A stretch of DNA of 64,000 nt from Wenjunlia tyrosinilytica. GTDB lineage: Bacteria; Actinomycetota; Actinomycetes; Streptomycetales; Streptomycetaceae. The notes beneath the pieces were generated by a model, which worked only from the letters and a program-made list of their open reading frames with translations, was not told the origin of the DNA and did no database searches. Positions 1-42,414 of this stretch are shown piece after piece (the stretch's first letter is position 1; each line of letters starts with the position of its first letter). Made by a program: the position numbers and the translations under genes. The stretch spans positions 124,001 to 188,000 of the forward strand of contig NZ_BMMS01000018.1 of NCBI RefSeq assembly GCF_014646055.1, given 5' to 3'.

Positions 1-3000
1 CCAACCGGCACTTCGATGGGACGCTGCCGCTGTCCAGGGTCGCGTTCCCCCCGCCCGCCTTCGACGTCTCCGCCAAGGGCGCCCAGGAAGAGGCGCTGCG
101 CCGCACCGACTACGCCCAGCCCGCCATCGGCGCCCTGTCGGCAGGCCAGTTCCGGTACTTGGAGGAGCTCGGCTTCAAGGCCGAGGGCTTCCTCGGACAC
201 AGCTTCGGTGAACTCACCGCGCTGTGGGCCTCCGGAGCCCTCGACGACGACGCCTACTTCGCGCTCGCCCGCGCCCGAGGAGCGGCGATGGCGCCGCCCG
301 CGAACGCGGGCTCGGGCCTCGACGCGGGCTCCGACTTCGACGCGGGCGCCATGGCCGCCGTCAGCGCGCCGGAGGAGAAGGTCGCCGAACTGCTCGCCGC
401 CCACCCCGCCCTGGTGGTGTGCAACCGCAACGCCGCCGACCAGATCGTCGTCGGGGGCGCCACACAGGAGGTGGACCGGCTCGTCGCCGCGGCGAAGGAA
501 GCCGGTGTCCGGGCCACCCGGCTGCCGGTCTCGGCCGCGTTCCACACCTCCTTCGTCGGGCACGCGGTGGAGGCGTTCCGCGCCCATGTGGAGGCCGCGC
601 AGATCCGCGAGCCGCGAGGCACGGTGTACGCCAACACCCCCGGCGCGAGCTACGGCGCCGACGTGGAGGCCAACCGGCGCGTGATCACGGAGCAGCTGAT
701 CAACCCGGTGCACTTCGCCGACCGTGTCGAGGAGATGTACGCGGCGGGCCACCGCACCTTCGTGGAATTCGGCCCCAAGGGCGTGCTCACCCAGCTGGTC
801 CGCCGCATCCTCGGCGACCGCGAGCACACCGCCGTCCAGCTCGACGCCGGTCCCGACCGTGACGCCGACACCGCGCTGAAGCAGGCCGTGGCCCAGCTCG
901 CGGTCCTCGGACTGCCGCTGGACACCGCGGACCGCTACACCGCACCGGTGCCGGAGGCCGCACCGGCCAAGGGGATGACGGTGATGCTCAACGGCATCAA
1001 CTACGTCTCCGAGCCGAGGAAGGCCGCGTACCGCGACGCCATTGAGAACGGCTACAAGGTCACCCTGCCCACCGCCCCCGTAGCCGCCCCCGCAGCCGCA
1101 GCCGCAGCCGCGCCCGCGCCGACCCCCGCAGCCGCTCCCGCACCCGCCCCGGCAGCGCCGCCGGAGCCCGTGGCGGCGCCCGTACTCGCGCCCGCCCCGG
1201 TGGCGCAGGAGCCCCCGGCCCCGGTGGCGGCCCCCGTGCCCGCCGCGCCGCCGACGCGACCCGTCCTGGAGACCACGGAGACCCCGTACATGGACAGCGA
1301 CCAGAACTCACCGCCACCGGCAGCGGGCGACACCCGCCTGACCGAGCTCGTGGCCGACCACCTCTCCCTGCACGACGACTACCTCAACGGCCAGCTGCGC
1401 AGCGCCGAACGCCTCGCCGGCCTGGTGGAGCGGGCCGCGGCCGAGGGACGCCTGGGCGAGGTCTTCGCCGGTGTCTCCGCGGTGAAGGAGCACGGCCTGG
1501 CCATCGGCCGCACCCACCTCAAGGCCAACGAGGTCCTGCGCGACCTCGCCGAACTGGAGCTGGGCCGCACCGGCCGCACCGCCGCGGCGGCGTCCCCGGC
1601 CGCGGCGCCTGCCGCTCCCGCCGCCCCGGCGGTGGCCCCGGCGGCTGCGCAGCCGCCCGCCGCACTCCCGGTCGCCCAGCCCGCCCCCGCGGCGCTGCCG
1701 CCCGCCCCGGTGGCCGAGACCCCGCCCGCCCCGGTGGCCGAGACCCCGCCCGCCCCGGTGGCCGAGATACCGGTGGCCCCGGCCCCCGCCCCGGTCGTGG
1801 AGACCCCGGCGCCCGCGGCCGTCGTGGAGGCGCCGAAGCCCACGCCCGTGGTCGAGACCCCGGCCCCCGCAGGAGTTTCCCCGGCGGCTGTGGAGCAGGC
1901 GTTGCTGGATGTGGTGGCGCAGAAGACGGGCTATCCGGCGGAGATGCTTGAGCTGGGTATGGATGTGGAGGCTGATCTGGGGATCGACTCGATCAAGCGG
2001 GTCGAGATCATGGGTGTGCTCCAGGAGCGTTTCCCCAGTGATGCCGAGGTGGGTCCGGAACAGCTCGGTGAGCTGCGGACTTTGGGCGACATCGTCGGCT
2101 TCATGGCCGACCTGTCCGGCGGTTCCGCTGCCGCCCCCGTTGCTTCGGCGGCCCCGGCTGCCCCGGCCGGTCCCTCTTCGTCGGCTGTCGAGCGGGCGTT
2201 GCTGGATGTGGTGGCGCAGAAGACGGGCTATCCGGCGGAGATGCTTGAGCTGGGTATGGATGTGGAGGCTGATCTGGGGATCGACTCGATCAAGCGGGTC
2301 GAGATCATGGGTGTGCTCCAGGAGCGTTTCCCCAGTGATGCCGAGGTGGGTCCCGAACAGCTCGGTGAGCTGCGGACCTTGGGCGACATCGTCGGCTTCA
2401 TGGCGGCAGCGACCGGAGGCGCCCCGCAGGCCGACGCTCCAGCCCAGCAGGCCGACGCGGACGCTGCTGCCCAGCAGGCCGTCGCGGACGCTGCCGCCGG
2501 ACGGCTCGGCCGGGCCCACGCGGCGCTCGCCGAACTGCCCACCCCGGACCTGCTGGCCGACGCCTACCCGGCCGGTTCCGCAGCGCTCCTCCTCGACGAC
2601 GGCGGTGAACTCGCCCCGGCCCTCGCCGCACGGCTGACCGAGGCCGGATGGCGTGTGCACACGCTGCGCCTGCCCGGTGCCGCCCGGCGCGGCGCGGACG
2701 GCGCCGATGACTCCGCTCTCGGCTCATGGGACGCGGACGAGCTGGCCGATCGGGTCAAGGAGGTTCTCGCCCACCAGGTGCGCCTGGTCGTCGGCTTCGC
2801 CACGACGGCCACCGACTGGGCCGAGGGCGTCCACCGAGCCGCCCACGCCCTCCTGCTCGCCAAGCACGTGGTCGAGCCGCTGACCGCCGCCGCGGCGACC
2901 GGCCGCTCCGCCTTCGTCACCGTCACCCGTCTCGACGGCACCTTCGGTCTCTCCGGGGTGGACGAGGACGCGGTCCCGGCCGGCGGCCTCACCGGGCTGG

Positions 3001-4895
3001 TCAAGACCCTGGCCGTGGAAGCCCCCGAGGTGTTCTGCCGGGCCGTGGACCTCGCGCCCACCGTGGACACGGTGACCGCCGCCGGTCTCCTGCTGGACGA
3101 GGTCAACGATGCCTCGGCCGAGCCCGCGCAGGTGGGCCTCGACGGCCGCCGCCGCGTCACCCTCACCCTGGCCGACAAGCCGCTGACGGCGGCAGGCGCC
3201 GACACCGAACTCACCGCCGAGGACCTGCTCGTGGTGACCGGTGGCGGCCGCGGGATCACCGCGCGGTGCGTCGTCGACCTCGCCAGGCGGTACCGGCCCG
3301 GCCTGCTCCTGCTGGGCCGCACCGCCCTTGGCGAGGAGCCCGCGTGGGCCCTGGGCGTCGAGGACGCCGCGGCGCTGAAGGCGGCGGCCGTGGCCGCGCT
3401 GAAGTCCGGTGGAGAGAAGCCCACGCCCAAGCGTGTCGAGCGGCTCTACCGCGACGTCGTGGGACAGCGTGAGATCAAGCAGACCCTCGCCGAGATCCGC
3501 GCCGCGGGCAGCCAGGCGGAGTACCTGGCGGTGGACATCACCGACGCCACCTCCGTGGCCACGGCTCTGGCCCCCATCGCCGACCGGGTCACCGGACTCG
3601 TGCACGGCGCCGGAGTCCTGGCCGACCAGCTGATATCCGGGAAGAGGCCCGAGGAGATCGCGCGGGTCTTCGCACCCAAGCTCACCGGGCTGCGCACGGT
3701 CGCGGCCGCCCTGCCCACCGACCGGCTCAAGCACGTGGTGCTGTTCTCCTCGGTCGCCGGATTCTTCGGCAACCACGGCCAGTCCGACTACGCCATGGCC
3801 AACGAGATGCTCAACGCCTGGGCGTCGGGCTTCAAGCGGCTCCACCCGAGGGCCAGGGTCAGCTCGCTGAACTGGGGCGCCTGGGACAGCGGAATGGTCT
3901 CCCCGCAGATCAAGGCGGTCTTCGAGGAGCGCGGGATCACGCTCATCCCGGTCGCGACCGGAACCCGGATGTTCACCGAGCAGTTCGCCGCCGACCGCGG
4001 CGACGACGTGGTCACCGTTCTCGGTCCGACCACACCGCTGTCGGTGCGGGAGACCGGCCGCCCCACCGCCGTCGTCCTGGAACGGCGGCTGACGGACCTG
4101 GCCGCCGACCCGGTCGTCACCGACCATGTCGTGGGCGGTGTCCCGGTCCTGCCGGCGGCGGTCGCCCTCGGCTGGGCGATCGGCGCCGTGGAGCGGGTCA
4201 CCGGTGGGATCGTCCGCCAGGTGCGGGACTTCGCGGTCCACAAGGGCGTCCTCTTCGACGGAACCGAGCAGCACCGGTTCCAGCTCGAGGCGACTCCCGC
4301 GGGCAGTGACACCACCGAGGTCGTCATACGCTCCATCGACGGCTCGGGGGCCGTCCGCCCGCGCTACGCGGCCGGGCTCGTCCTGGGCCCCGACCCCGCG
4401 CTCGAGGCGGCACGGCCGACCGTGGCCGGACTCCCCGCCCTCGGCGGCGGACGGGACGCGGGCGGCTTCTACACCGACGGCACCCTCTTCCACGGTCAGG
4501 CCCTGCGCGGTGTGCGCCGGGTGTCGGCCGAGGACGAGAACCGGCTGGTCCTGGAGTGCTCCCTGAGCGAACTCCGCCCGGCCGGTGGGGCGTTCGGCAG
4601 CGCGCTCTACGCCCCCGGAAGCGCCGATCTGCTGCTCCAGGCCGCGCTGGTGTGGATGAAGCTGTTCCGCTCCACGGCCTCCCTGCCGCTGTCCGTGGCC
4701 AAGGCGGAGCTCCACGAGGCCCTGCCGGACGGCTCCCCGTTCCTGGTGGTCGTCGAACCGGTTACGGCCGCGGGCGGCTCCAGCGCTTCTCTCACGGTCA
4801 CCGCGTGCGCCCCGGACGGACGGGTCCTCACCCGCCTGACCGGAGTGAACGTGGTCTCGACCCCGCAGCTGGCCGCCAAGTTCGTGAGCAGCTGA
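1..4895 (+). CDS. PUFA-type polyketide synthase subunit, AT-ACP-ACP-KR-DH (5' end outside window)
   Basis: PfaA-like megasynthase subunit for iterative chain building. The frame is open from base 3, so an upstream ketosynthase is probably cut off by the window edge. An acyltransferase with a GHSFGE nucleophile motif (Ser codon 201-203) is followed by a Pro/Ala-rich linker, two tandem carrier domains each with DLGIDSIKRVEI (phosphopantetheine Ser codons 1989-1991 and 2286-2288), a ketoreductase (VTGGGRGIT near 3234, SSVAGFFG and YAMAN near 3750-3810) and a C-terminal PKS-type dehydratase with HxxxGxxxxP (His codon 4125-4127) and DxxxQ (4626-4640). LGIDSIKRVEI is typical of PUFA-synthase carriers. 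Two carriers is a low number, since bacterial PfaA often has four to nine. The next gene supplies KS-CLF-AT and dehydratases, so the two proteins probably work as one complex. The product is unknown. Confidence 0.93.
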   Translation, partial: NRHFDGTLPLSRVAFPPPAFDVSAKGAQEEALRRTDYAQPAIGALSAGQFRYLEELGFKAEGFLGHSFGELTALWASGALDDDAYFALARARGAAMAPPANAGSGLDAGSDFDAGAMAAVSAPEEKVAELLAAHPALVVCNRNAADQIVVGGATQEVDRLVAAAKEAGVRATRLPVSAAFHTSFVGHAVEAFRAHVEAAQIREPRGTVYANTPGASYGADVEANRRVITEQLINPVHFADRVEEMYAAGHRTFVEFGPKGVLTQLVRRILGDREHTAVQLDAGPDRDADTALKQAVAQLAVLGLPLDTADRYTAPVPEAAPAKGMTVMLNGINYVSEPRKAAYRDAIENGYKVTLPTAPVAAPAAAAAAAPAPTPAAAPAPAPAAPPEPVAAPVLAPAPVAQEPPAPVAAPVPAAPPTRPVLETTETPYMDSDQNSPPPAAGDTRLTELVADHLSLHDDYLNGQLRSAERLAGLVERAAAEGRLGEVFAGVSAVKEHGLAIGRTHLKANEVLRDLAELELGRTGRTAAAASPAAAPAAPAAPAVAPAAAQPPAALPVAQPAPAALPPAPVAETPPAPVAETPPAPVAEIPVAPAPAPVVETPAPAAVVEAPKPTPVVETPAPAGVSPAAVEQALLDVVAQKTGYPAEMLELGMDVEADLGIDSIKRVEIMGVLQERFPSDAEVGPEQLGELRTLGDIVGFMADLSGGSAAAPVASAAPAAPAGPSSSAVERALLDVVAQKTGYPAEMLELGMDVEADLGIDSIKRVEIMGVLQERFPSDAEVGPEQLGELRTLGDIVGFMAAATGGAPQADAPAQQADADAAAQQAVADAAAGRLGRAHAALAELPTPDLLADAYPAGSAALLLDDGGELAPALAARLTEAGWRVHTLRLPGAARRGADGADDSALGSWDADELADRVKEVLAHQVRLVVGFATTATDWAEGVHRAAHALLLAKHVVEPLTAAAATGRSAFVTVTRLDGTFGLSGVDEDAVPAGGLTGLVKTLAVEAPEVFCRAVDLAPTVDTVTAAGLLLDEVNDASAEPAQVGLDGRRRVTLTLADKPLTAAGADTELTAEDLLVVTGGGRGITARCVVDLARRYRPGLLLLGRTALGEEPAWALGVEDAAALKAAAVAALKSGGEKPTPKRVERLYRDVVGQREIKQTLAEIRAAGSQAEYLAVDITDATSVATALAPIADRVTGLVHGAGVLADQLISGKRPEEIARVFAPKLTGLRTVAAALPTDRLKHVVLFSSVAGFFGNHGQSDYAMANEMLNAWASGFKRLHPRARVSSLNWGAWDSGMVSPQIKAVFEERGITLIPVATGTRMFTEQFAADRGDDVVTVLGPTTPLSVRETGRPTAVVLERRLTDLAADPVVTDHVVGGVPVLPAAVALGWAIGAVERVTGGIVRQVRDFAVHKGVLFDGTEQHRFQLEATPAGSDTTEVVIRSIDGSGAVRPRYAAGLVLGPDPALEAARPTVAGLPALGGGRDAGGFYTDGTLFHGQALRGVRRVSAEDENRLVLECSLSELRPAGGAFGSALYAPGSADLLLQAALVWMKLFRSTASLPLSVAKAELHEALPDGSPFLVVVEPVTAAGGSSASLTVTACAPDGRVLTRLTGVNVVSTPQLAAKFVSS
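1277..1292 (+). promoter_or_regulatory. In-frame internal ribosome-binding site and ATG within the AT-ACP linker
   Basis: GGAG at 1277-1280 lies 9 bases before an in-frame ATG at 1290, exactly at the end of a Pro/Ala-rich linker. The protein that follows begins MDSDQNSPPPAAGD and continues into a charged helical stretch before the carrier domains. This could be a leftover start codon from a gene fusion or an active internal start. The motif is short enough to occur by chance. Confidence 0.35.
1698..1769 (+). repeat. 24-bp tandem repeat, three units, in a linker
   Basis: Units at 1698-1721, 1722-1745 and 1746-1769 are identical except for the last two bases of the third. Each encodes the eight residues PPAPVAET (the last ends in EI). 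They lengthen the Pro/Ala-rich linker before the first carrier domain. Confidence 0.9.
1899..2404 (+). repeat. Two near-identical carrier-domain repeats, 297 bp apart
   Basis: Bases 1899-2107 recur at 2196-2404 with about two differences (ggtccggaa/ggtcccgaa and ggacttt/ggacctt). Both copies use many T- or G-ending codons (ttg, gat, ggt, ctt, gct, tat), unlike the C-ending codons of the flanking domains. This suggests a recent duplication or gene conversion of a segment with its own codon history. Confidence 0.9.
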
Positions 4896-4910
4896 CACAA
4901 CTGCCCCGAT

Positions 4911-4961
4911 CGGTCCGGCCGGTCGGCCGTCCCCAGCGGACGGCCACCGCCGGCCGGACCG
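4911..4961 (+). other. Nested hairpin between the two synthase subunit genes
   Basis: The 12-base arms CGGTCCGGCCGG (4911-4922) and CCGGCCGGACCG (4950-4961) pair perfectly. Inside them GGCCGTCC (4925-4932) pairs with GGACGGCC (4938-4945) around a 5-base loop. It lies 15 bases after the upstream stop codon and ends 10 bases before the GGAGG of the next gene. It has no T-run, so it may attenuate transcription or stabilise the message end rather than terminate. Confidence 0.6.
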
Positions 4962-4989
4962 GTCAACACCCGGAGGGATCACTGCTCGC

Positions 4990-7900
4990 ATGAGCAAGTA
5001 CGCAATCGTCGGCCTCTCCTGCCTCTTCCCCGGGGCGGGCACCCCGGCCGAGTTCTGGGACAACATCCACGCAGGTGAGGACAGCCGCCGGGAGGGCGGG
5101 GAAGAGGTCTTCGGGCCGGCCCCCGACGACCGGGACACCGATCCGGACCACCGGATCTACTGCTCGCGCGGCGGGTTCGTGACCGGCTTCGACTTCGACC
5201 CGACCGGGTACCGGATCGACCCCGACCGCCTCGCCCGACTGGACCGGGCCTTCCACTGGTCGCTGCACGTGGCCCGTGAGGCCCTTCGTGACAGCGGTTA
5301 CGCGGACCGTCCCGACACACTCGCCCGTACCGGCCTGGTCCTCGGCAACTACTCGTTCCCCACCCCCGCATCCGCCGACATCAGCCTTCCCCTGGTGCGC
5401 GAGGCCGTCCTCGACGGCCTGCGCCGGGCGGGAGTCCCCACCCCCGAGGGCGCGTTGCTCGACCGGGACTCCCTCCTCGCCGAGAACGCCGCCGTCAGCG
5501 GCGGACCCGCCCGGATCGCGGGCGCCGCCCTCGGCCTCGGCGGTCCGCGCTACGCCCTGGACGCCGCCTGCTCCTCGGCCCTGTACGCGCTCAAACTCGC
5601 CTGCGGGCACCTCGCGGCGGGCCACGCCGAGCTGGTGCTGGCCGGCGGTGTCTGCGCCCCCGACCCCACGTTGATCCATCTGTCCTTCTCCGACCTGCAC
5701 GCCTACCCGGAGAACGGCTTCAGCCAGCCGTTCGACGCCCGGTCGGCCGGCATCATCACCGGCCAGGGCGCGGGCATGGTCGCGGTCAGGCGGCTGGAGG
5801 ACGCCCTGCGCGACGGCGACCGGATCCACGCGGTCGTCGACGGCATCGGGCTGTCCAACGACGGCGCGGGCCGCCATCTGCTGGTGCCCAACGCCGCCGG
5901 ACAGCACCGCTCGTACGAACTGGCCTACGCCGAGGCGGGGGTGGACCCGGCCGAGGTGGACTACCTGGAGTGCCACGCCACCGGGACACCGATCGGCGAC
6001 CGCACCGAGGCCGAGTCCGTCGCCGCGTTCTTCGGCGAGCACGGGAAGGTGCCGCTGCTCGGGTCGGTCAAGGGCAACATCGGGCACCTCCTCACCGTCG
6101 CCGGGCTGAGCAGCCTGCTCAAGGTCGTCCTGGCGATGCGGAACGGCAGAATCCCCCCGACGACGGGCGTGGACCGGCCGGTCGCCTCCGAGAACGGCAG
6201 TGTCGGCGACGGCGTCCTCGTCCGCACCGCGCGGGAGTGGCCCGAGGGCCGGGGTCCGCGCCGGGCCGCCGTCTCCGCGTTCGGTTTCGGCGGCACCAAC
6301 GCCCATGTCGTCCTCTCCGAGCCGAGGGCCGCCGAGGACGGGTCGGCCACCCCGGACACACAGGCCGCCGACGGCACCGGCCGCACGGTGCCGCCCGCCC
6401 TGGACGTCATCGGGCTCGGCGCCCACTTCGGCCGCTTCGAGACCGTCAAGGACTTCGAACGAGCCGTCCACGACGGCACGGACGCCTACCGGCCGCTGCC
6501 CGAGCGCCGCTGGCGCGGCCTGGAGCAGACGGCGGGCGGCTCCCTGGAGAAGGCGGGACTCACCCAGGAGTCGCTCCCGGAAGGCGCGTTCGTCGACGCC
6601 GTGGACGTCGACCCGATCGACGCCAGGATCCCCCCGGCCGACCTGCGCAACTACAACCTCCAGCACGCGCTCATGTCCCGGGTCGCCGACGAGGCGCTGC
6701 ACGACGCCGGGTTCAGCCGGGCCGTGCCCGCCGGCCGGGCGGCCCCCGAGCCGCGCCGCGTCGCGGTCGTGGTGTCGATGGAGATCGAGCCCAGTGCCCA
6801 TCTGCACCTGGCCCGCCACAGCCTGGCTCCCTTCCTTCGCGAGCAGTACGCCAAGGCGGGGCTGGAGTTGACGCAGACTCAGACGCGGGCGCTCGCCGAC
6901 GCGGCCAGGACGGGAGTGCACGAGCCGATCGTCGCCAACGAGGTGCTCAGCTACATCGGCAACATCATGGCGAGCCGTATCTCCTCGCTGTGGAACCTCA
7001 CCGGCCCGTCGTTCACCGTCTCCTCCGACGGCGCCGGGACCGCCGAGGCCCTCGAAGTCGCCCGAATGCTGCTGCTCGACGAGTCCGTCGAAGCGGTGCT
7101 CGTCGGGGCCGTGGACCTCGCCGCCTCCCCCGAGGGCCTGCTGCTGCGGGCGGGAGAGGAGGGGCCCGTGGCGGGCCCCGGCCTCAGCTTCGGCGAGGGC
7201 ACCAGGGGCTGGAGGATCGGCGAGGGCGCCGGAGCGGTCGTCGTGACCCGCCCAGGAGGGTCCTCCCGTCGGGCATACGCCCGGCTCGAGTCCGTGGCCG
7301 TGCGCCACGCCGAACCGGTCGGGGGCGAACTCCCCGCGGCCGACCCCGCGGCGCTCGCCGCCGCGGCCCGCGAGGCCCTGGCCGCCGCCGGGATCGGCGC
7401 CGGTGACATCGGCTACCTGGAGGCGCACGCGGGAGGCACGGCCGAGCAGGACAGCGCCGAACTCACGGCCCTCGCCTCGGTGTACCCCGCCGGAGCCGGT
7501 CAGGTCGCCATCGGCAGCGCCAAGGCGCAGATCGGCGACGTCCAGGGCGCGGCCGCGATGGCCGGACTCATCCGGACCGTGCTGTGCCTGCACCACGGCT
7601 ACCTGCCGGGCGTTCCCGGCTGGAAGCGCCCCGCGGCCGAGCTCGCGGACGAGTTCGCCGCCTCCGCCCTCTACGTCCCCGACGCCTCCCGGCCATGGCT
7701 GCGCCGCGACAACCGCTCGCGCCGCCACGCCGCCGTCAGCTTCATCGGGAACGGCGGTGCCCACGGCCACCTCGTGCTCTCGGCCGACCGCATCCGCGCG
7801 GACGAGCGGGAGACCGCCTGGCAGGACGCGGCGGGCCCGGTGCTGCTGGCCCTCGGCGCCAAGGACCTGGACGGGCTGCTGGCCGAGATCGGCCGCCACC

Positions 7901-12471: not shown

Positions 12472-12519
12472 CCGCCCGCCCCACGACCCACTCGACGCCC
12501 TAGGAGCGTGCGTTCACCC

Positions 12520-14329: not shown

Positions 14330-14336
14330 AACATGA
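14151..14336 (+). CDS. Possible 61-residue repeat peptide coupled to both neighbours
   Basis: A GTG at 14151 overlaps the enoyl-reductase stop (GTGA), and the TGA at 14334-14336 overlaps the next gene's ATG (ATGA). GGGAGG lies about 6 bases upstream of the GTG. The product would be two 30-residue Arg-rich repeats (MSGAREAARRRSSVWPGFRR...). No family is recognised. It may be a true small protein, a device to keep ribosomes moving between genes, or only the coding by-product of a duplicated spacer. Confidence 0.3.
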   Translation: MSGAREAARRRSSVWPGFRRVGGEANGRGAVSGAREAARRRSSVWPGFRRVGGEANGRGAT

Positions 14337-16210
14337 CCATCACCGAGACCCCCGTCTGCGGTGCGTCGGGCACCGGGGCGGAGTGGGTGGGGGCCCGTGC
14401 CGAGGAGTTGGAGCGGCTCCTCGGTGACCCCCGTGACCCCGACAGCCCGTTCGGGTTCGCCGCGGCCGTCGCCCGCGACGAGCACGACCGGTTCCCGACC
14501 GAGCTGGTCCACGCCCTGCGCGGCACCGGCTTCCACCTCAACTACCTGCCCGCCGAACTCGGCGGCACCTTCCGCTCGTTCGCCCACAGCCTCGTCCTGG
14601 TGCGCACCGCGGCCCGCCGCGACCTGAACGTCATGCCCGGCACGATGTTCGGCATCACCGCCGCCACCTGCCTGATGCTGCACGGCTCGCCCGAACAGCA
14701 GCGCCGCGCCGCCGGGATCCTGCGGCGCGGCGGGGCCGTGGCCTTCGCGCTCTCGGAGGCCGACCACGGCAGCGACCTGCTCGCCAACACCGCCCGGCTG
14801 GATCGGGATCCCGACAGCGACGGATGGCGGCTGACCGGCCGCAAGTGGATGGTCGGCCTCGGGCAGCGGTGCGAGGCGGCCTACCTGGTCGCCAGGACCG
14901 GGCAACGCGGTCCGGCCGCCTTCTCCGCGGTCCTGCTCGATCTCGGCGGCGCCGCCGACAAACACCTCGAGCGCGGCCCCGACGTGCGCACCGGCGGGAT
15001 GCGCGGCATCGACTTCGCCGACCTGGACTTCAATGACTTCCCCGTCCCGGCCGACGCCCTCGTCGGCCGGGAGGGCGAGGCGCTGGAGGCCGCCGTCAAG
15101 GCCCAGCAGGTGGTGCGTGTGATGAGCACCGCCGGCAGCCTGGGCTGCGCCGACACCGCGCTGCGGCTCACGCTCGACTTCGCCACCGGCCGCCGTGTCG
15201 GCCGCACCCCGCTCACCGAGGCCCCCCACCCCCGGCGGGACCTCGCGGTGGCCTCCGCGGCGCTCATCGCCGCCGACGCCGTGGCCATGGCCGCGGCACG
15301 GGGGCTGCATGTCGTCCCGGAGACGTTCAGCGTGTGGGGCTGCGCCGCCAAGCACGTGGTGGCCGAGGCCGCCGAGGACGTGATCGGCCGCTGCGCCACG
15401 GTCCTGGCGACCCGTTCCGTCCTGCGCACGGGCGGTCCCGGCGCGGGGCTGTTCCAAAAGCTCCAGCGCGACGCCGCACTGGTGCGGGTGGTGGACACCA
15501 GCACGGTGGCCAACCTCCGCTCGTTCGCGGGCCAGTTGCCCGCCGTCGCGGCGGCCGCCCACGCCGGCGGCGAGGAGTGGCAGCACGGCAGGGGAGGGCA
15601 GGACGGCACACTGCGCACGGTCTTCGCGCTCGACGCCGAACTGCCCGCCTACGACCCGGCCGCGCTCGACCTGAACGCCCGCGGCCACGACCCGGTCACG
15701 GCGGGTCTGGGCCGCCTGGTCACCTTCGCCCGCAGGTCGCTGTCCGACGGCGGAGCGAGCGAGACCGCCGCGCTCGTGGACCGGCTGGGCGACGACGTCT
15801 CCCGCCTGTCCGGTGATATCGAGCGGGCCCGCTCCGGCGGCGACCCCTGCGAACTGGTCGACCTCGCCGAGCGGTTCGCGTTCCTCCACGCCGCCGCCTG
15901 CTGCCTGCACCTGTGGTGGGCCAACCGGCATCTGTCCCTGGTCGGCTGGGCCGAGCGCCACCCGGCGCTGTACGGCACCGCGCCCGGCTCCCCCGAATGG
16001 CTCGGCGCCGCCCTGGCCTACCTGCTGGCCAAGGCGGACGGGACCGACCCGCGCCGGCAGGCAGCGATGCTGCTGCCCGCCCTGGACGTCATCACCGATC
16101 TGCACGGCACGGACCGCCTCTTCAGCGCCGTCCCCGTCCGACTGGCCCGCCACGCCGACCTCGACGCCGACTTCGACGCCGACTCCCCGGCCCGCAATCC
16201 CGGAACCTGA
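14333..16210 (+). CDS. Acyl-CoA dehydrogenase-like protein, paralogue 1
   Basis: A 625-residue acyl-CoA dehydrogenase superfamily flavoprotein, much longer than the usual 380 or so because of a C-terminal extension. The N-terminal and middle domains are recognisable, with FALSEADHGSDLLANTA as the FAD/substrate segment and GRKWMVGLG. Near residue 388 the usual catalytic EGT region reads VVDTSTVAN, with Asp where many family members have Glu. ATG 14333 follows a gggagaggtgc ribosome-binding stretch. It is probably made with paralogue 2 and may insert a double bond into the synthase product. Whether the substrate is bound to CoA or carrier protein cannot be told. Confidence 0.82.
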   Translation: MTITETPVCGASGTGAEWVGARAEELERLLGDPRDPDSPFGFAAAVARDEHDRFPTELVHALRGTGFHLNYLPAELGGTFRSFAHSLVLVRTAARRDLNVMPGTMFGITAATCLMLHGSPEQQRRAAGILRRGGAVAFALSEADHGSDLLANTARLDRDPDSDGWRLTGRKWMVGLGQRCEAAYLVARTGQRGPAAFSAVLLDLGGAADKHLERGPDVRTGGMRGIDFADLDFNDFPVPADALVGREGEALEAAVKAQQVVRVMSTAGSLGCADTALRLTLDFATGRRVGRTPLTEAPHPRRDLAVASAALIAADAVAMAAARGLHVVPETFSVWGCAAKHVVAEAAEDVIGRCATVLATRSVLRTGGPGAGLFQKLQRDAALVRVVDTSTVANLRSFAGQLPAVAAAAHAGGEEWQHGRGGQDGTLRTVFALDAELPAYDPAALDLNARGHDPVTAGLGRLVTFARRSLSDGGASETAALVDRLGDDVSRLSGDIERARSGGDPCELVDLAERFAFLHAAACCLHLWWANRHLSLVGWAERHPALYGTAPGSPEWLGAALAYLLAKADGTDPRRQAAMLLPALDVITDLHGTDRLFSAVPVRLARHADLDADFDADSPARNPGT

Positions 16211-16224
16211 CAGGAGCCCCTCCC

Positions 16225-18015
16225 GTGCCGAAAGCACATCTGACGGAGCTGGCCGAGCGGCTCGAACGCCATCTCGGTGATCCGCACGACCCCGCCAGCC
16301 GGATGCCGTACCGGAAGATCCTCGAACACGACGAGCGCGAGGAGTACCCCTACCCCTTCGTCAACCTCCTTCGGCGCTGGGGTGTGCACGAGTACTCCAT
16401 CCCCATGGCCCAGGGCGGCAAAGCGGGGGACGTCGAGGTCGGATTCAACCTGATGCGGCTGATCGCCAGGCGCGACCCCACCTCCGCCACCGCGCTGATC
16501 ATCAGCAACCTCAGCTTCATGCCCGCCTGGATCGCCGGCACCGACGAGCAGAAGACGTACCTGGTCGACGCGATCAAGCGGGGAACCCGGTACGCCTGGG
16601 GGCTGTCCGAGCGGCATCACGGCAGCGACCTGCTCAGCAATGAGCTGACGGCGCAGAAGGTCGACGGCGGCTATCTGCTGACCGGTGAGAAATGGCTGAT
16701 CGGCAACGGCACCGTCGCCGACGGGGTCAGTGTCTTCGCCCGCACCAACGCCAAGGGCGGCCCCGCCGGTTACTCGATCTTCCTGTTGGAGAAGCGGAAG
16801 ACCCCCGCCGGCTCGGTCGACGAGCTCCCCAACGAACGTCTGCACGGGCTGCGTGCCCTGGACATGAGCGGCTTCCGCCTCGACCGGGTCTTCGTTCCGG
16901 ACTCCGCGCTCCTGGGAGCGGAGGGCCAGGGTCTGGAGATCGCCCTCCAGACCTCCCAGACGGCACGCGCCCTGATCGGCGGCATCGCGCTGTCCGCCGT
17001 CGACACCTCCCTGCGGGTCACCCTGGACTTCACCGAGGGCAGGGAGATCTTCGGCAAGGCGGTCAGTGACATCGCCTACTCGCGCCGACAGCTCGTCGAG
17101 TGCTTCGCCGACCTGATGCTCGCCGACGCGGTCAGCATCGGCGCGGTGCGCAGCCTCCAGGTGGTGCCGGAGCAGACCAGTGTGTGGTCCTCGGTGGTGA
17201 AGTACTTCGTCCCCACGCTGCTCGAGCGAACGATGTCCCAGCTCAACACGGTCCTGGGAGCCCGTTTCTATCTGCGCGGGCACGCCCACTACGGCATCCA
17301 CCAGAAGATGCTGCGCGACCAGCTGGTGGCGAACTTCGCCGACGGCAACACGGTGGTGAACCTCAAGAACATCGCCCTCCAGCTCGACGGCCTGCTGACC
17401 GCCTCCGCCGAGGCCGACGACGCGGCGAGGGCGGCCGCGGACGAGCGGGCCGCCACCCTCTACGGAATCGACCGCGAACTGCCCATGTACCGGCCGTGGG
17501 CCCAGGAGCTGTTCAGCCGCGGCCTCGACGACGCGCTGCTGGCCGCCCCCGGCTCCCTGCGGCAGCTGCGCGAACTCGCCGAGCAGGCCAAGGGCGACGA
17601 GCGCGACTGGCTCTCACGCGCCGCGGACGTCGCCGCCGAACTCCTCGGCCACGCACCGAGGCTGCGGGAGCGGGCCACGGCTTTGAAGGCCGAACTCGGC
17701 CGGGACTACGGCCAGTCGGCCGAGCTGTTCGACCTGGCCAAGCAGTACTGCTTCCTCCACGCGGCCGCGGCCTGCGTGCACACCCACGTCCACTCCCACG
17801 GCGCGCTGGAGGACCCGCTGCCCAGCGGGGCCCTGCTCCTGCTCCAGCTCGAGCGTGTCCGCCGTCATCTGCGCCCGCACGAGTCCGTCACCGACGCCGC
17901 CGTCGTCGACGAGGTCATGCGGGTCCTGCGCCACCTGCACCGAGGCAACCGCCTCTTCTCGTACTGGCAGTTCCCCCTGGCGGAGCGCGGCGACCTCGCC
18001 GCCGCCCGCAGCTGA
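16225..18015 (+). CDS. Acyl-CoA dehydrogenase-like protein, paralogue 2
   Basis: A 596-residue relative of the gene upstream, sharing the N-terminal pattern (LERHLGDPHDP here, LERLLGDPRDP there), the GLSERHHGSDLLSNELT segment and a C-terminal extension with FLHAAAACVH. At the usual catalytic Glu region it has ADGNT (Asp near 373). The GTG start at 16225 is set by AGGAG at 16212-16216. The 14-base gap to the upstream stop suggests one transcript and perhaps a heteromeric enzyme, as known for two-gene acyl-CoA dehydrogenases in actinobacterial steroid catabolism. A desaturation role in this cluster is inferred. Confidence 0.84.
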   Translation: MPKAHLTELAERLERHLGDPHDPASRMPYRKILEHDEREEYPYPFVNLLRRWGVHEYSIPMAQGGKAGDVEVGFNLMRLIARRDPTSATALIISNLSFMPAWIAGTDEQKTYLVDAIKRGTRYAWGLSERHHGSDLLSNELTAQKVDGGYLLTGEKWLIGNGTVADGVSVFARTNAKGGPAGYSIFLLEKRKTPAGSVDELPNERLHGLRALDMSGFRLDRVFVPDSALLGAEGQGLEIALQTSQTARALIGGIALSAVDTSLRVTLDFTEGREIFGKAVSDIAYSRRQLVECFADLMLADAVSIGAVRSLQVVPEQTSVWSSVVKYFVPTLLERTMSQLNTVLGARFYLRGHAHYGIHQKMLRDQLVANFADGNTVVNLKNIALQLDGLLTASAEADDAARAAADERAATLYGIDRELPMYRPWAQELFSRGLDDALLAAPGSLRQLRELAEQAKGDERDWLSRAADVAAELLGHAPRLRERATALKAELGRDYGQSAELFDLAKQYCFLHAAAACVHTHVHSHGALEDPLPSGALLLLQLERVRRHLRPHESVTDAAVVDEVMRVLRHLHRGNRLFSYWQFPLAERGDLAAARS

Positions 18016-18048
18016 CCACGTCCGCCCCGGAGTATCTGGAGCTTGACC

Positions 18049-19689
18049 ATGCGCTCATCGCCTCCCCTGTGGCGCACCATCGTCGCCACCTCAGTCCCGA
18101 TGTTCATGGTGGTCCTGGACAACCTCGTGGTGACCACCGCCCTGCCCGCCATCCGCACGGACCTCAACGCCTCGCTCCAGGACCTTCAGTGGTTCGTCAG
18201 CGCCTACGTCCTGTCCTTCGCCACGCTGCTGCTGACCGGCGCGGCGCTGGGCGACCGCTACGGGCGCCGCAGGGTCTTCGTCGCGGGCATCTCCCTGTTC
18301 ACCGCCTCCTCCCTGCTCGCGGGGCTCTCCACCAGCTCGGGGATGCTGATCTTCGCCCGGGCGCTCCAGGGGGCGGGCGGCGCGATGGTCATGCCGCTGT
18401 CGCTCACCCTGCTGGCCGCGGCCGCGGGACCAGGCAGAAGGGCCCTGGCGGTGGGAGTCTGGGGCGCCATCAGCGGCGCCGCTGTCTCGGTCGGCCCGGT
18501 CGTCGGAGGCGCGGTCACCGACGGTCTGGACTGGCAGTCGATCTTCTGGCTGAACATCCCGATCGGACTGCTGGCCATCCCGTTCGCCTACCGCACCATC
18601 GGGGAGAGCAAGGGCAGCGACCGCGGACTCGACCTGTTCGGCCTGCTGCTGGCCGGCGGCGGTGTCTTCTCCCTCGTCTGGGGCATCGTCAGGGCCGAGA
18701 CGCAGGGCTGGTCCTCCACCGAGACCCTGACCACCATCACCCTCGGCGCCGTCCTGCTGATCGCCTTCGTCGTCTGGGAGCGCCGCGCGAAGACCCCGAT
18801 GCTGCCGCTGCGCTTCTACCGCAACCCCGCGTTCTCCCTGACCAACCTGCTCTCGATGGCCATGTACTTCGGAGTCTTCGGGTCGATCTTCCTGCTCTCG
18901 CAGTTCCTCCAGATCGCCCAGGGCTACAGCGCGTTGGAGGCGGGGCTGCGCACCCTGCCCTGGACGCTGATGCCGGCCTTCGTGGCCCCCGTGGCAGGCA
19001 TCCTCACCCCGAGGGTCGGCGGTGGGCCGCTCATGGCCGCGGGCCTGGTGCTCCAGGCGACCGGGCTCGGCTGGCTCGCCCTCATCCTCGACCCGGGCAC
19101 GTCGTACAGCTCGATGCTGGCCCCGTTCGTCCTCGCCGGAACCGGCATGGGCCTGGTCTTCGCCCCCAGTGCCAACGTGGTCCTGGGCGCCGTCCGCCCG
19201 TCCGAGCACGGCAAGGCCTCGGGCGCCAACAGCACGGTGCGTGAGATCGGCGGAGCGCTCGGCATCTCCGTCCTCGGCGCGGTCTTCGCCCACCACGGCG
19301 GCTACACCACGCCGCAGACCTTCACCGACGGACTCACCCCGGCCGTGTGGGTCGGCGTCGCTGTCGTGGCGGTCGGAGCGCTGCTGGCGGTCTTCGTGCC
19401 CAAGCGCCGTCCGCTCACCGAGGACGGGGAGGAGGCGGCGCCGGGTGAGTCGGCCACGGTGGAGCGGACCGCGTCACTGACGCTCGTGGCCGACGGCACC
19501 GGCACCGCCGACAGCGCTCACGCCGACAGCACTCACGCCGACGGCTCCACCGCCCACAGCGCTCACGCCGACGGCACCAACGCCGATGGAGGCACCCCGT
19601 CGGGCCGGACCCTCGAGGCGGCGGCCGGTTCCGAGGCCGAGGCCACCCGCGGCCTGCACATCGTCCCCTCGCTCAGCGGCAAGGAGTAG
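18049..19689 (+). CDS. MFS transporter, DHA2 (14-helix) drug-efflux type
   Basis: An integral membrane exporter with MFMVVLDNLVVTTALPAIRT in helix 1, GDRYGRRRVF (motif A) after helix 2 and about 14 hydrophobic segments, the pattern of EmrB/QacA proton antiporters. ATG 18049 follows TGGAG; an in-frame TTG six bases earlier is less likely. The cytoplasmic C-terminal tail has six five-residue repeats rich in Ala, Asp, His and Ser. Its place behind the synthase and dehydrogenases suggests it exports or gives resistance to the cluster product. Confidence 0.88.
   Translation: MRSSPPLWRTIVATSVPMFMVVLDNLVVTTALPAIRTDLNASLQDLQWFVSAYVLSFATLLLTGAALGDRYGRRRVFVAGISLFTASSLLAGLSTSSGMLIFARALQGAGGAMVMPLSLTLLAAAAGPGRRALAVGVWGAISGAAVSVGPVVGGAVTDGLDWQSIFWLNIPIGLLAIPFAYRTIGESKGSDRGLDLFGLLLAGGGVFSLVWGIVRAETQGWSSTETLTTITLGAVLLIAFVVWERRAKTPMLPLRFYRNPAFSLTNLLSMAMYFGVFGSIFLLSQFLQIAQGYSALEAGLRTLPWTLMPAFVAPVAGILTPRVGGGPLMAAGLVLQATGLGWLALILDPGTSYSSMLAPFVLAGTGMGLVFAPSANVVLGAVRPSEHGKASGANSTVREIGGALGISVLGAVFAHHGGYTTPQTFTDGLTPAVWVGVAVVAVGALLAVFVPKRRPLTEDGEEAAPGESATVERTASLTLVADGTGTADSAHADSTHADGSTAHSAHADGTNADGGTPSGRTLEAAAGSEAEATRGLHIVPSLSGKE
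19507..19596 (+). repeat. 15-bp tandem repeat, six units, in the transporter tail
   Basis: Units start at 19507, 19522, 19537, 19552, 19567 and 19582, variants of gccgacagcgctcac. They encode ADSAH, ADSTH, ADGST, AHSAH, ADGTN and ADGGT. The repeat lies outside the membrane domain and is probably neutral for transport. Confidence 0.85.
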
Positions 19690-19709
19690 CGCGCCATGGC
19701 CCGAGACCG

Positions 19710-20123
19710 TCAGCCCTCGCCCCGCTGGGCGGCCTCCTGTGCCAGCCGGCTGTGCACCTCGGGCCAGTCCAGCCCCGTGGAGACAGTGGTGTTGAAGAAC
19801 GAGAACACCGAACCCGCCATGTGCGGGCGGTACTTCTCGACGATCTGCTTGTGCGGGGAGGCGGAGTTGAACTCCATCAGCGCCTTGCGGTCGACCCAGG
19901 CCGACTGGGTCCAGAAGACCTTCTTGGTCGGCTCGACCGCCAGTGCGTGCCCGACCCCGCCGGCCGAACCCACCGCCTGGCGCCTGATGGCCGTCGAGGC
20001 CATCAGGAAGGGCAGTACATGGCGGAACGAACGCAGCTCCAGCTTGGAGATCATCACGTACACCTCCCCGTCGGCCGTGCGCGGTGCGGGCGCCGGGCCC
20101 TTGGCCCAAGGCAGCTTCAGCAT
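19710..20123 (-). CDS. Small monooxygenase-like (dimeric alpha/beta barrel) protein
   Basis: A 137-residue protein with the pattern of dimeric alpha/beta-barrel proteins related to spheroidene-monooxygenase-like or DUF3291-type families: YVMISKLELRSFRHVLPFL early, then AVEPTKKVFWTQSAWVDRKA and SPHKQIVEKYRPHMAGSVFS. The Trp-Thr segment and late His are typical of the fold. ATG at 20123 follows GGGAGGGG. It converges on the transporter with only 20 bases between the stops and is back to back with the phosphopantetheinyl transferase. Cluster membership is likely from position only; the reaction is unknown. Confidence 0.7.
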   Translation of the reverse strand: MLKLPWAKGPAPAPRTADGEVYVMISKLELRSFRHVLPFLMASTAIRRQAVGSAGGVGHALAVEPTKKVFWTQSAWVDRKALMEFNSASPHKQIVEKYRPHMAGSVFSFFNTTVSTGLDWPEVHSRLAQEAAQRGEG

Positions 20124-20164
20124 CGTCCCCTCCCAGGGTGCGGGCGCTGATGTCTAGGACCGAC

Positions 20165-20977
20165 ATGATGGCCGGAACCGACGTGGCGACCGCGACCCTA
20201 CTGCACAATCGTGTTCCGCTCGTGGAGACACGGTCGATCGTCCCCGCCCGCCCGCGCCCCGCGGCGGACCCCGGGCGGGCGGACACCGACCTGTGGCTGC
20301 TGCCGGAGAGCGCGGTGGCGCGTTTCGTCAGCCGCGTCGAAGGCGTCGGCCTCTTGAGGCCCGCCGAACGGGAGCGTCTGGACCGTATGCGCACCGAGGG
20401 CGGCCGCAGGCGCTTCCTGGGCGGGCGGGCCCTGTGCCGCTACGCGCTCAGCGCCCGCACCGGACTGCCGATGGACTCCTGGCGCTTCTACGAGGACGAG
20501 TTCGGGCGTCCGGAGCCCGAACCGACCGGCCACAGCGTCCGGTTCAACCTCTCGCACACCGACGGCCTCATCGCCTGCGTGGTGACCGACGAGGACCGGG
20601 CGTGCGGTGTCGACGTGGAGCGGACCCCCGCGGGCCCGCAGGCGCTGCGGCACGTGCCCCGTCATCTCGCCGAGGCCGAGCAGGCCACCCTGGACGCGGC
20701 CCCGCCCGGGGTGCGCGCCGCGAAGGTGGCGGCCTACTGGGTGCTGAAGGAGGCGTACCTCAAGGCCCTCGGTGTCGGTATGACCCGGGGACTGAGCGGA
20801 TTCACCTTCTCCGACCCCGCCGCCGGAAGTATCCGCGTCGACGACCCCGACCACGGCGCGGCGGACCGCGACCGCTGGCTGTTCGACCTTTTCTACCCCA
20901 GCCCCGGACATGTTCTGGCCATCGCCGTCAAGGGCGCCCGCCCCGGCTCGCTGCACCGCGTCCCCCTGACGGGCTGA
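20165..20977 (+). CDS. Sfp-type 4'-phosphopantetheinyl transferase
   Basis: Transfers phosphopantetheine from CoA to the Ser of carrier proteins. The three family motifs are present: FNLSHTDG, ACGVDVER (Mg-binding Asp/Glu) and WVLKEAYLKALGVG. The length of about 270 residues fits the Sfp class. Start choice: ATG 20165 has AGGA 6 bases upstream; ATG 20150 and ATG 20168 are alternatives. Its place among the synthase genes makes the two tandem carrier domains the obvious substrate, as PfaE does for PUFA synthases. Confidence 0.93.
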   Translation: MMAGTDVATATLLHNRVPLVETRSIVPARPRPAADPGRADTDLWLLPESAVARFVSRVEGVGLLRPAERERLDRMRTEGGRRRFLGGRALCRYALSARTGLPMDSWRFYEDEFGRPEPEPTGHSVRFNLSHTDGLIACVVTDEDRACGVDVERTPAGPQALRHVPRHLAEAEQATLDAAPPGVRAAKVAAYWVLKEAYLKALGVGMTRGLSGFTFSDPAAGSIRVDDPDHGAADRDRWLFDLFYPSPGHVLAIAVKGARPGSLHRVPLTG

Positions 20978-21067
20978 CCCCGGCCGCACCGCCCCCACCT
21001 CCCGACCTCGAGTGCGCCGAGTGCCCCGTACCGACTTCCCGACATCGAGCCCCTTAAGGAAGACACC

Positions 21068-22369
21068 ATGACCGCGAACTCCTCCACCCACAGGCCCCGG
21101 GTCGCCGTCGTCGGCGCCGGAGTCGCCGGTATCTCCGCCGCCTACGCCCTGCGCGAGCACGCCGAGATCACCATGTTCGAGCAGGACGGCAGGCCGGGCG
21201 GCCACGCCAACACCATCGAGGTCGAGGAGAACGGGCGGACGCTCGGCATCGACACCGCGTTCGTTGTCTTCAACCGGCCCAGCTACCCCAACATGACCCG
21301 GTTCTTCGACGAGCTCGATGTCGAGGCCGTCGAGCACCTCGGCGGGTTCAACTTCTTCGACCTCGACACCGGGACGGAGTACGGCAGCGCCGAGATGAAC
21401 CTCGGCGAGGCCGACGTGGCCACGCGCTACTCCGAGCGGTTCCGGACGGTCTGGCGCGAGGCCCGCCGCTTCCACGAGGAGGGCCGCCGCGACTTCTTCC
21501 GCAAGCGGACCGACATGCCGCTGGGGGAGTACCTCGACCGGGGCGGCTACAGCCAGGAGTTCCGCCACTCGTACGTCGTCCTGCTGGCCACCGCCGTGTG
21601 GTCGGTGCCGGCGGAGCTGATCTGGGAGATGCCCGCCACCACCGTCATCGCGTTCTTCATGGCCCACGACGAGGGCGGCCTCGGCGGCCGGCGGGTGGAC
21701 TGGCGCACGGTGCGCGGAGGCTCGATCAGCTACGTGCGCAAGGCCATCGCCGCGATCAACCCCAAGCTGCGCCTCGGCGAGGCGGTCACCGGAGTGCGCC
21801 AGGAGGAGGACGGGGTCACCGTCGCCACGGCGGGCGGCAGCGAGCACTTCGACTACGCGGTCGTCGCCGCCCACGGCGACCAGGCGCGCGCCCTCCTGGA
21901 CAACCCGACCGACGTCCAGCGGGCCACCCTCGGCAACATCCGCTACAACGCCTCCACCGCCATCCTGCACACCGACCCGACCGTGATGCCGCCCACCCGG
22001 CAGCGGTGGGAGAGCTGGAACTACGGCAAGGTGACGGTCGACGGGCAGGTGCGCCCCTACGTGGCCTACTACATGAACCGGCTGCACGGATTCACCGCGG
22101 AGAAGGACTACTTCGTCACCCTGGACTACCCGCTGGCGGTGCGCGAGGAGGCGGTCATCAGGGAGATGAGCTACTCCCACCCGGTGATCGACATGAACCT
22201 GCGCAACCTCCAGGCCACCATCTACCAGGTCAACGAGGGCACCCGGGTCAAGCTGTGCGGTTCCTACTTCCATTCCAAGCAGCAGTACTTCGACCAGATC
22301 GGCTCGCACGAGGCGGCGTTCAGCTCCGGCATGGAGGCGGCCAAGCAGCTGCTGAGAGAACTGGGCTAA
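21068..22369 (+). CDS. NAD/FAD-binding amine-oxidase-like flavoprotein
   Basis: A 433-residue protein opening with a dinucleotide-binding fold, AVVGAGVAGISAAYAL, then FEQDGRPGGHANTIE, the start pattern of the predicted NAD/FAD-binding family COG2907. Members often sit beside cyclopropane-fatty-acid synthase genes and are thought to act on acyl chains or isoprenoids. No CFA synthase is present here. The ATG follows AAGGA. With two dehydrogenases and an exporter in the same cluster, an oxidative or isomerising step on the polyene chain is plausible but inferred. Confidence 0.8.
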   Translation: MTANSSTHRPRVAVVGAGVAGISAAYALREHAEITMFEQDGRPGGHANTIEVEENGRTLGIDTAFVVFNRPSYPNMTRFFDELDVEAVEHLGGFNFFDLDTGTEYGSAEMNLGEADVATRYSERFRTVWREARRFHEEGRRDFFRKRTDMPLGEYLDRGGYSQEFRHSYVVLLATAVWSVPAELIWEMPATTVIAFFMAHDEGGLGGRRVDWRTVRGGSISYVRKAIAAINPKLRLGEAVTGVRQEEDGVTVATAGGSEHFDYAVVAAHGDQARALLDNPTDVQRATLGNIRYNASTAILHTDPTVMPPTRQRWESWNYGKVTVDGQVRPYVAYYMNRLHGFTAEKDYFVTLDYPLAVREEAVIREMSYSHPVIDMNLRNLQATIYQVNEGTRVKLCGSYFHSKQQYFDQIGSHEAAFSSGMEAAKQLLRELG

Positions 22370-25441: not shown

Positions 25442-25534
25442 GGCTCGTGCCTCCTCACCCTCGTTCGGGGGTAGTGAGTGATCCGGGTCTCACTGGACGA
25501 TGCAATGTAGCGCGTGGTCACGAGGAGGAAACAC

Positions 25535-30989: not shown

Positions 30990-31087
30990 CCCGTAGTGTG
31001 GGCGCCGTTGAGTGAACGAGGGGTCGCTCCGAGCGCCGAAGCCGTCGTCCAGCGGGTCCGGGCGGCGGCTTTTCGGCGCGCCGGACT

Positions 31088-32255: not shown

Positions 32256-32262
32256 CAGCGAC

Positions 32263-40800: not shown

Positions 40801-42414
<1,614 letters not shown>

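Follow-up and report, generated by a model that had tools for sequence, protein, structure and literature searches.

A polyunsaturated fatty acid-type synthase cluster of Wenjunlia tyrosinilytica with a conserved tailoring set, predicted to yield a further desaturated and exported lipid

The window analysed here, a stretch of 64,000 nucleotides of Wenjunlia tyrosinilytica (contig NZ_BMMS01000018.1, positions 124,001 to 188,000; G000:C18:124001-188000 in our numbering of the 8.49 Mb genome), carries a gene cluster for a synthase of the polyunsaturated fatty acid (PUFA) type, in which the synthase genes are joined by a set of tailoring genes. The left window edge cuts the cluster, which begins 3.1 kb further to the left; read across this edge, the gene order is a discrete acyl carrier protein (ACP), a thioesterase, the synthase proteins PfaA, PfaBC and PfaD, two acyl-CoA dehydrogenase (ACAD)-like proteins, ACAD1 and ACAD2, an exporter of the major facilitator superfamily (MFS), a DUF3291-type protein on the minus strand, a phosphopantetheinyl transferase (PPTase) and a flavoprotein. 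We conclude that this is a real, conserved and uncharacterised specialised-lipid pathway, which can be separated as one PUFA subtype with a fixed tailoring set in 32 of 394 genomes of the family and on three Streptomyces plasmids. As to its function, we propose with moderate confidence that the chain made by the synthase would pass to the free ACP, be desaturated further, and then be released and exported.

The tailoring genes go together with this synthase subtype. In the survey of the 394 family genomes, with a match limit of E 1e-60, an ACAD1-like match was found in 75 genomes and a PfaD match in 107. The ACAD1 matches of at least 45% identity fell in 32 genomes, as did the PfaD matches of at least 66%, and the two sets of genomes, with the source genome included, were identical (in one of them, G182, PfaD is present in two pieces). 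A second genome of the same genus contained neither a close PfaD nor a close ACAD1. The conservation of each gene was counted in the 26 of the 31 other cluster genomes for which both sides were covered (of the other five, G360, G226, G298 and G282 were covered in part and G337 was left out). The ACP, PfaA, PfaBC, ACAD1, ACAD2, the flavoprotein and the DUF3291 protein are present in all 26; PfaD and the MFS exporter were counted in 25, a MerR-type regulator in 24, the PPTase in 23 and the thioesterase in 22. The count of 25 for PfaD represents no loss, because G234 was counted without its mid-cluster stretch and the family search shows PfaD there. PfaBC of G234 and G316 was matched at 54% and 69% identity, respectively, by blastp without composition correction and by phmmer, and the flavoprotein gene lies upstream of PfaA in G194, G333, G383 and G234. 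The MerR gene is absent from the cluster studied here, the sole match in 92 kb being antisense to the MFS gene.

As controls, we used 20 PfaD places in 19 genomes of the same family, a subset of the matches in which PfaD is about 50-59% identical (50-58% at the loci used), with stretches reaching about 10 kb or less on each side of PfaD (L139, L142 and L149 are shortened by contig ends). PfaD and PfaA- and PfaBC-like matches were found at all 20 control loci by phmmer on six-frame open reading frames (ORFs), whereas the ACP, ACAD1, ACAD2, PPTase, flavoprotein, MerR, DUF3291 and MFS genes were found at none of the 20 within these stretches, in the tblastn as well as in the phmmer search; a weak thioesterase match was detected at one. 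Since the same 32 genomes hold both PfaD and ACAD1, and since the set accompanies the synthase in the counted clusters and is missing from the controls, the tailoring genes are tied to the synthase. The expectation of the initial annotation, that known PUFA synthases lack such a set, thus holds for the control loci, but the set is not special to this genome, being shared with 31 other family genomes and the three plasmids. In the PfaD tree of 67 rows, for which only matches of at least 440 residues were used (the split PfaD of G182 was dropped), the 46 ACAD-type rows lie on one side of a branch with a support of 83/91, not starred in our tree, and found in 84% of bootstrap trees; these rows include six zero-length-branch pairs, each probably the same genome twice, and long branches are carried by L063, L141, L145, L061 and others.

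The two ACADs of the cluster are 32% identical to each other. The structural model of ACAD2 (predicted local distance difference test, pLDDT, 90.8) shows an ACAD fold with Z 32.2 and a root-mean-square deviation (rmsd) of 2.4 over 375 residues, the residues after about 391 being barely covered. For comparison, 14 non-cluster loci with related ACADs were taken, a choice among matches of 33-39% identity, and at 11 of the 14 a fatty acyl-AMP ligase (FAAL), two ACADs and an ACP are encoded in this order. The exceptions are L157 and L163, with one ACAD only, and L150, without FAAL within the stretch covered. The latter (G000:C12:91000-105000) belongs to the same genome as the cluster and represents a separate FAAL-type ACAD-ACAD-ACP set. 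A midpoint-rooted ACAD tree included 13 non-cluster pairs (11 of the 14 loci plus L066 and L067, with L157, L161 and L163 left out), in which ACAD1, ACAD2 and the two FAAL-type groups each form one side of a branch (100/100), and ACAD2 joins two cyanobacterial proteins (90/93). At the column of the presumed catalytic base, which we take to correspond to Glu376 of medium-chain acyl-CoA dehydrogenase, Asp stands in 19/19 rows of ACAD2, 18/18 of ACAD1 and 13/13 of the first FAAL-type ACADs; the second FAAL-type ACADs have His in 12 of 13 rows and a gap in the other. Judged by this column, both cluster ACADs seem to be carboxylate-type enzymes, and a strict reading of ACAD1 and ACAD2 as Δ2 and Δ4 enzymes is not justified because both are of the Asp type without a His-type partner.

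Paired ACADs are known from lipopeptide biosynthesis. In the account of these enzymes in PMC9113097, the pairs are thought to form the Δ2 and Δ4 bonds of the taromycin and malacidin tails, probably on FAAL- or ACP-bound chains, with no mechanistic study reported there by then, and the role of LipB in friulimicin was demonstrated by gene disruption; for rotihibin, the order RthH-RthI-RthJ-RthK is given in PMC8552735. By analogy, the cluster ACADs probably work like those of the lipopeptide cassettes. In Anabaena sp. UHCC 0204 (L063), a PfaD (54%), a FAAL-ACAD-ACP set and an MBOAT acyltransferase lie within 10 kb, and the two systems may also meet in cyanobacteria. Distant relatives of ACAD2 (37% identity) were also detected in plasmid-collection records of Acinetobacter baumannii (H16 and H17).

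The flavoprotein model (pLDDT 75.8) gave LkcE as the top fold match, with Z 32.6 and an rmsd of 3.3 over 391 residues at 25% identity, followed by phytoene desaturase (Z 26.6, rmsd 3.6 over 391) and the fatty acid isomerase 2b9w of P. acnes (Z 24.3, rmsd 3.7 over 370); by sequence, LkcE was matched with E 7.9e-25. The same genome encodes a paralogue, 35% identical over 431 aligned positions, and the paralogue gene is followed by those for a DUF1365 protein, a cyclopropane-synthase-type methyltransferase (CMAS) and a DUF1295 protein (L167, G000:C1:30500-42500). In Rhodobacter, according to the description of the enzyme in PMC7380195, UfaD makes the conjugated diene 11Me-10t,12t-18:2 from 11Me-12t-18:1, and UfaO, encoded next to it in the operon, belongs to the DUF1365 family. 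We therefore name the cluster flavoprotein UfaD-like only by analogy, resting on the gene context of its paralogue; neither a DUF1365 nor a methyltransferase gene adjoins the cluster copy, and the only DUF1365 match of the genome is the one beside the paralogue on contig C1. The run at L167 also adjoins an anti-sigma-K-type gene and is possibly an operon for a furan or branched fatty acid.

The core of the cluster was analysed by family models, motifs and solved structures. The start codon of PfaA is a GTG located 1798 bases to the left of position 1, and the ketosynthase (KS) domain of the protein lies outside the window. PfaA carries the KS active-site Cys (DAACASS at 213), the acyltransferase (AT) motif GHSFGE, two ACPs with GIDSIKRVEI, the ketoreductase (KR) motif YAMAN and the dehydratase (DH) motif HVVGGVPVLP; the number of ACP motifs in PfaA varies from 1 to 5 among 23 listed frames, some of which are cut. 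In PfaBC the second KS-like domain, the chain length factor (CLF), lacks the active-site Cys, VSSDGA standing by eye in place of DAACSS of the first KS. The closest solved structure for PfaBC is 6riw (ORF10), and FabA structures match its second FabA region. Motifs are present throughout the core, including the KS, both ATs, both ACPs, the KR, the polyketide synthase-type DH and both FabA domains. When the Pfa type is defined by a PfaA with KS, AT, tandem ACPs and KR, a KS-CLF protein with two FabA domains, a PfaD and a PPTase within the cluster, all of these were found, and by this testable definition the predicted synthase is Pfa-type, apart from its sub-threshold PfaB domain.

The positions of all features are listed in Table 1. 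The initial annotation had listed two ACAD-family proteins, an MFS exporter, a PPTase, a COG2907-type flavoprotein and a PfaD in one run, all of which are present according to Pfam and NCBIfam, the flavoprotein as a member of the amine-oxidase family, and its KS-CLF-AT protein with two dehydratases is borne out by the domains, the motifs and the match to 6riw. It had also described the first synthase as AT-ACP-ACP-KR-DH; these domains are present, but the full gene is KS-AT-ACP-ACP-KR-DH with the KS beyond the window edge. Likewise, the parts that it named belong to the cluster, but the upstream ACP and thioesterase lie outside the window, and the DUF3291 gene was missed. The latter, located between the MFS and PPTase genes, was identified by homology to the same protein of other clusters, of which the homologue in L046 matches PF11695; the plus-strand ORF at 19690-20157, which overlaps it, gave no Pfam match. 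The PPTase starts at about 20150, with alternatives at 20165 or 20168. The best NCBIfam matches of the discrete ACP and the thioesterase are the N-terminal ACP and thioesterase regions of Pks13, far below the whole-protein cut-off.

Table 1. Features of the cluster; positions are those of the window unless another stretch is named.
Feature	Position	Strand	Evidence
Discrete ACP	L009:12878-13144 (stretch left of window)		Upstream of thioesterase and PfaA; Pks13 N-terminal ACP region as best NCBIfam match
Thioesterase	L009:13128-14177 (stretch left of window)		Between ACP and PfaA
PfaA-type synthase, KS-AT-ACP-ACP-KR-DH	1..4895 in window	+	TIGR02813, 1809.6 bits (cut-off 1010.1)
PfaBC-type fusion, KS-CLF-AT-DH-DH	4990..12471	+	Domain calls, motifs; 6riw (ORF10), E 5.5e-178
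PfaB-like acyltransferase domain, GYSLGE	8068..9186	+	pfaB_fam, 119.7 bits (cut-off 144.3); PDB PfaBs 9ry8, E 2.7e-34
Two FabA-type dehydratase/isomerase regions	10057..12468	+	PF07977 in two stretches; CHFPDDPVLAGS and CHFHRDPVMPGS motifs
PfaD-type enoyl reductase	12508..14154	+	TIGR02814, 652.6 bits (cut-off 449.25)
ACAD1, acyl-CoA-dehydrogenase-like	14333..16210	+	Pfam; Asp at presumed base column
ACAD2, acyl-CoA-dehydrogenase-like	16225..18015	+	Pfam; structural model; Asp at presumed base column
DHA2/EmrB-family MFS exporter	18043..19689	+	TIGR00711, 285.8 bits (cut-off 230.2)
DUF3291-type small protein	19710..20123	-	E 1.4e-26 to L047 homologue
Sfp-type PPTase	20150..20977	+	PF01648, E 9.9e-16
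Flavoprotein, amine-oxidase family, UfaD-like by gene context of paralogue	21068..22369	+	Pfam

In known Pfa synthases, the double bonds introduced by the FabA-type domains are cis and non-conjugated. In the pathway that we propose, PfaA, PfaBC and PfaD, which possess the domains and motifs needed for iterative chain building, would assemble a polyunsaturated acyl chain, and the PfaB-like AT would transfer this chain, once complete, to the discrete ACP. Bound to that ACP, the chain would lose hydrogens near the carboxyl end to each of ACAD1 and ACAD2, of which the simplest outcome would be α,β plus γ,δ unsaturation; the UfaD-like flavoprotein might then add a further double bond or shift one into conjugation, the thioesterase would free the product, and the DHA2-family MFS pump would export it. 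The DUF3291 protein is given no step in this scheme. A role of this kind for PfaB agrees with a 2026 study (PMC12895367, in its treatment of this protein), in which PfaB is reported to act as the terminal acyltransferase and may transfer the chain onto an ACP. The product is likely a fatty acid, or a simple derivative of one, that is extracellular, highly unsaturated and at least partly conjugated. The suggestion of the initial annotation, a secreted and further desaturated product, remains the best reading, because the tailoring set is conserved with the synthase (the ACADs and the flavoprotein in 26/26 clusters versus 0/20 controls, the exporter in 25/26) and because the relatives of the ACADs form desaturation cassettes for lipid tails; the product, its secretion and the substrate, as well as every chemical step, are what we infer from these genes. 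We put forward more tentatively, as possible rather than probable, that a widespread and sometimes plasmid-borne pathway joins a PUFA synthase, an ACP-bound desaturation pair and a UfaD-like desaturase, giving a secreted acid in which skipped cis bonds are combined with a conjugated polyene at the carboxyl end, an undescribed lipid class. The proposed pathway predicts a difference of two hydrogens in the product for each of the steps assigned to ACAD1, ACAD2 and the flavoprotein.

Several observations weigh against this pathway. In the ACAD tree ACAD1 and ACAD2 do not group with the two lipopeptide ACAD types, and the remaining deep branching is unresolved, so that the Δ2/Δ4 assignment cannot be read across to them. 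The ACP gene is located at the opposite end of the cluster from the ACAD genes. Among the 26 clusters, the thioesterase is absent from four, the PPTase from three and the exporter from one, with MFS matches of only 33-35% identity in four others (G234, G316, G349 and G375). The AT domain of PfaBC stays below the cut-off of its family model and is hence named PfaB-like only, and the closest solved structure of the flavoprotein belongs to LkcE, an amine oxidase/cyclase. Finally, we know of no product or enzyme assay for any member of this cluster type.

Three other explanations were weighed. That the synthase makes a building block, the polyunsaturated chain being passed by the ACP and the Pks13-like thioesterase to an amine, a sugar or an aromatic acid to give a hybrid lipid, is in our view unlikely. 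It would fit the Pks13-type matches of these two proteins, low as they are, and in other systems PUFA synthase-like genes feed hybrid peptides (PMC13291983, in its description of such genes); in addition, one plasmid copy of the cluster is preceded by genes for a chorismate-derived aromatic acid, and another is accompanied by acyl-CoA carboxylase genes. However, no partner gene recurs among the annotated neighbour families (families F13 and F20-F28 being outside that set), the recurrent neighbours checked by Pfam are housekeeping genes (MurB, adenosine deaminase, aminotransferase, NusG and a MaoC-type dehydratase) of one genus-level group, and apart from weak ligase matches the flanks are without FAAL.

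An ordinary membrane fatty acid of the eicosapentaenoic (EPA) or docosahexaenoic acid (DHA) kind, next to which the ACADs and the flavoprotein would be lipid-turnover genes adjoining by chance, appears to us quite improbable. The core synthase is indeed Pfa-like throughout, and Streptomyces PUFA-like genes were still labelled eicosapentaenoic acid synthesis in 2018, as the gene labels of PMC5932044 have it for S. coelicolor SCO0126-0127. On the other hand, the ACADs, the flavoprotein, the ACP and the DUF3291 protein follow the PfaD clade in every counted cluster and are absent from every control, and a dedicated exporter and a thioesterase would be unsuited to membrane use. We give slightly less credence still to the flavoprotein being an LkcE-like amine or amide oxidase/cyclase, with a product that contains nitrogen or is cyclised. 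LkcE is its best solved match by both sequence and fold, but the UfaD-type paralogue of the same genome is closer; the position of Glu64 of LkcE (mutated in 6f7v) is occupied in the flavoprotein by Val66, which is nearly invariant in the 14-row alignment, and no nitrogen-handling gene is found among the annotated conserved set. Further desaturation on the ACP followed by export is the explanation that we regard as most likely.

Named copies of the cluster were found in Streptomyces, Kitasatospora, Sphaerisporangium, Actinocrispum, Kutzneria and Solirubrobacter; in L057, L059, L060 and L061 the flavoprotein was not found within the stretches covered, which exclude the far upstream side. The three Streptomyces plasmids with a copy are 337-562 kb in size, and the S. 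globosus plasmid is probably the same as contig C3 of G341, so that its copy was not counted as an extra cluster. Two annotated plasmid copies show the order ACP, thioesterase, PfaA, PfaBC, PfaD, two ACADs, FAD oxidoreductase, MerR, DUF3291 and MFS. In a genus-level group containing Kitasatospora (L051, L079 and L099), the cluster lies between a gene for a MaoC-type dehydratase and the MurB, adenosine deaminase, aminotransferase and NusG genes, while in W. tyrosinilytica it lies in a purine-catabolism region, with PucR, molybdopterin dehydrogenase subunits and XdhC to the left (L009:2426-9929) and OHCU decarboxylase, uricase, amidohydrolase and malate synthase to the right (window 31012-34766 and 40801-42735). 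This arrangement suggests that the cluster was inserted into the purine-catabolism region and, since the chromosomal sites differ between groups and plasmid copies exist, the cluster appears to move as a unit.

Some neighbouring genes were considered as parts of the cluster and rejected. The xanthine-dehydrogenase-type, XdhC and pucR genes at the left are purine-catabolism neighbours. For the FAD_binding_3 gene (22687-23844, minus strand) and the two adjacent AMP-binding ligases (25511-28836), the only matches in the flanks of other clusters were of 26-36% identity and came from G316 and a single plasmid copy, and the TetR and LuxR-type regulator genes upstream of the AMP-ligases belong to no recurrent neighbour family. 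On NZ_CP107856.1 (L169), the plasmid copy is immediately preceded by genes for a chorismate-derived aromatic acid, together with those for a β-ketoacyl-ACP synthase III, an AMP-ligase and a carrier protein.

In the open-licence literature of PubMed Central, we found neither a paper on this tailoring set nor a characterised match. The PfaA and PfaC homologues of Streptomyces sp. TP-A0356 (contig L055) were reported in 2015 without description of the tailoring genes (PMC4675949). Among the types in the survey of Shulse and Allen (2011, PMC3098273), the uncharacterised secondary-lipid synthase types C and L share with the present cluster the fused pfaBC, a likeness that we compared by description only: as that survey describes them, type C, from one Deltaproteobacterium, has the order KS-CLF-AT-DH2, pfaD forming the 3' end, and type L includes S. 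coelicolor, for which production was given as not demonstrated. Nowhere in its main text does the survey use the terms acyl-CoA dehydrogenase, exporter or amine oxidase.

Compared with the lipopeptide cassettes, i.e., Tar5/Tar6 of taromycin, MlcH/MlcI of malacidin, LipB of friulimicin and RthH-I-J-K of rotihibin, the cluster has in common the tandem ACADs of about 30% mutual identity and a free-standing ACP, but it is without FAAL or nonribosomal peptide synthetase, and its chain would come from a PUFA synthase. Beside the ACADs no FAAL was found, the flanks of this and 27 other clusters giving only ligase matches of 26-30% (window 27-28.8 kb, and G316). Both cluster ACADs are of the Asp type, unlike the 13 FAAL-type pairs, in which one ACAD is of the Asp and one of the His type; the named lipopeptide proteins were compared by description. 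Because the flanks hold no FAAL beyond the weak ligase matches and no ACAD is of the His type, the cluster falls outside the FAAL-ACAD-ACAD-ACP cassette of lipopeptides, for which the Asp/His pairing is a pattern observed in the present alignment and not one taken from the literature. The flavoprotein shares the FAD amine-oxidase/phytoene-desaturase fold with UfaD of furan fatty acid synthesis in Rhodobacter, which is likened to phytoene desaturases in the discussion of it in PMC7380195, but the UfaD-like setting with a DUF1365 neighbour is a feature of the paralogue and not of the cluster copy.

The actinobacterial RerA/RerB system of Rhodococcus, which makes polyenes up to C22, also employs a PUFA-like KS-AT-ACP-ACP-KR-DH protein; in addition to what is described for RerA/RerB in PMC11563203, the present cluster has the KS-CLF, the FabA dehydratases, PfaD and the ACAD pair. 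With the marine PfaABCDE synthases of EPA and DHA it shares the tandem ACPs, the KS-CLF, the PfaB-like AT, the two FabA dehydratases, PfaD and the PPTase, but it differs from them in the fusion of PfaB and PfaC and in the extra ACP, thioesterase, two ACADs, flavoprotein, DUF3291 protein and exporter, a contrast to Pfa clusters that was measured on the 20 actinobacterial PUFA-like loci rather than on marine clusters.

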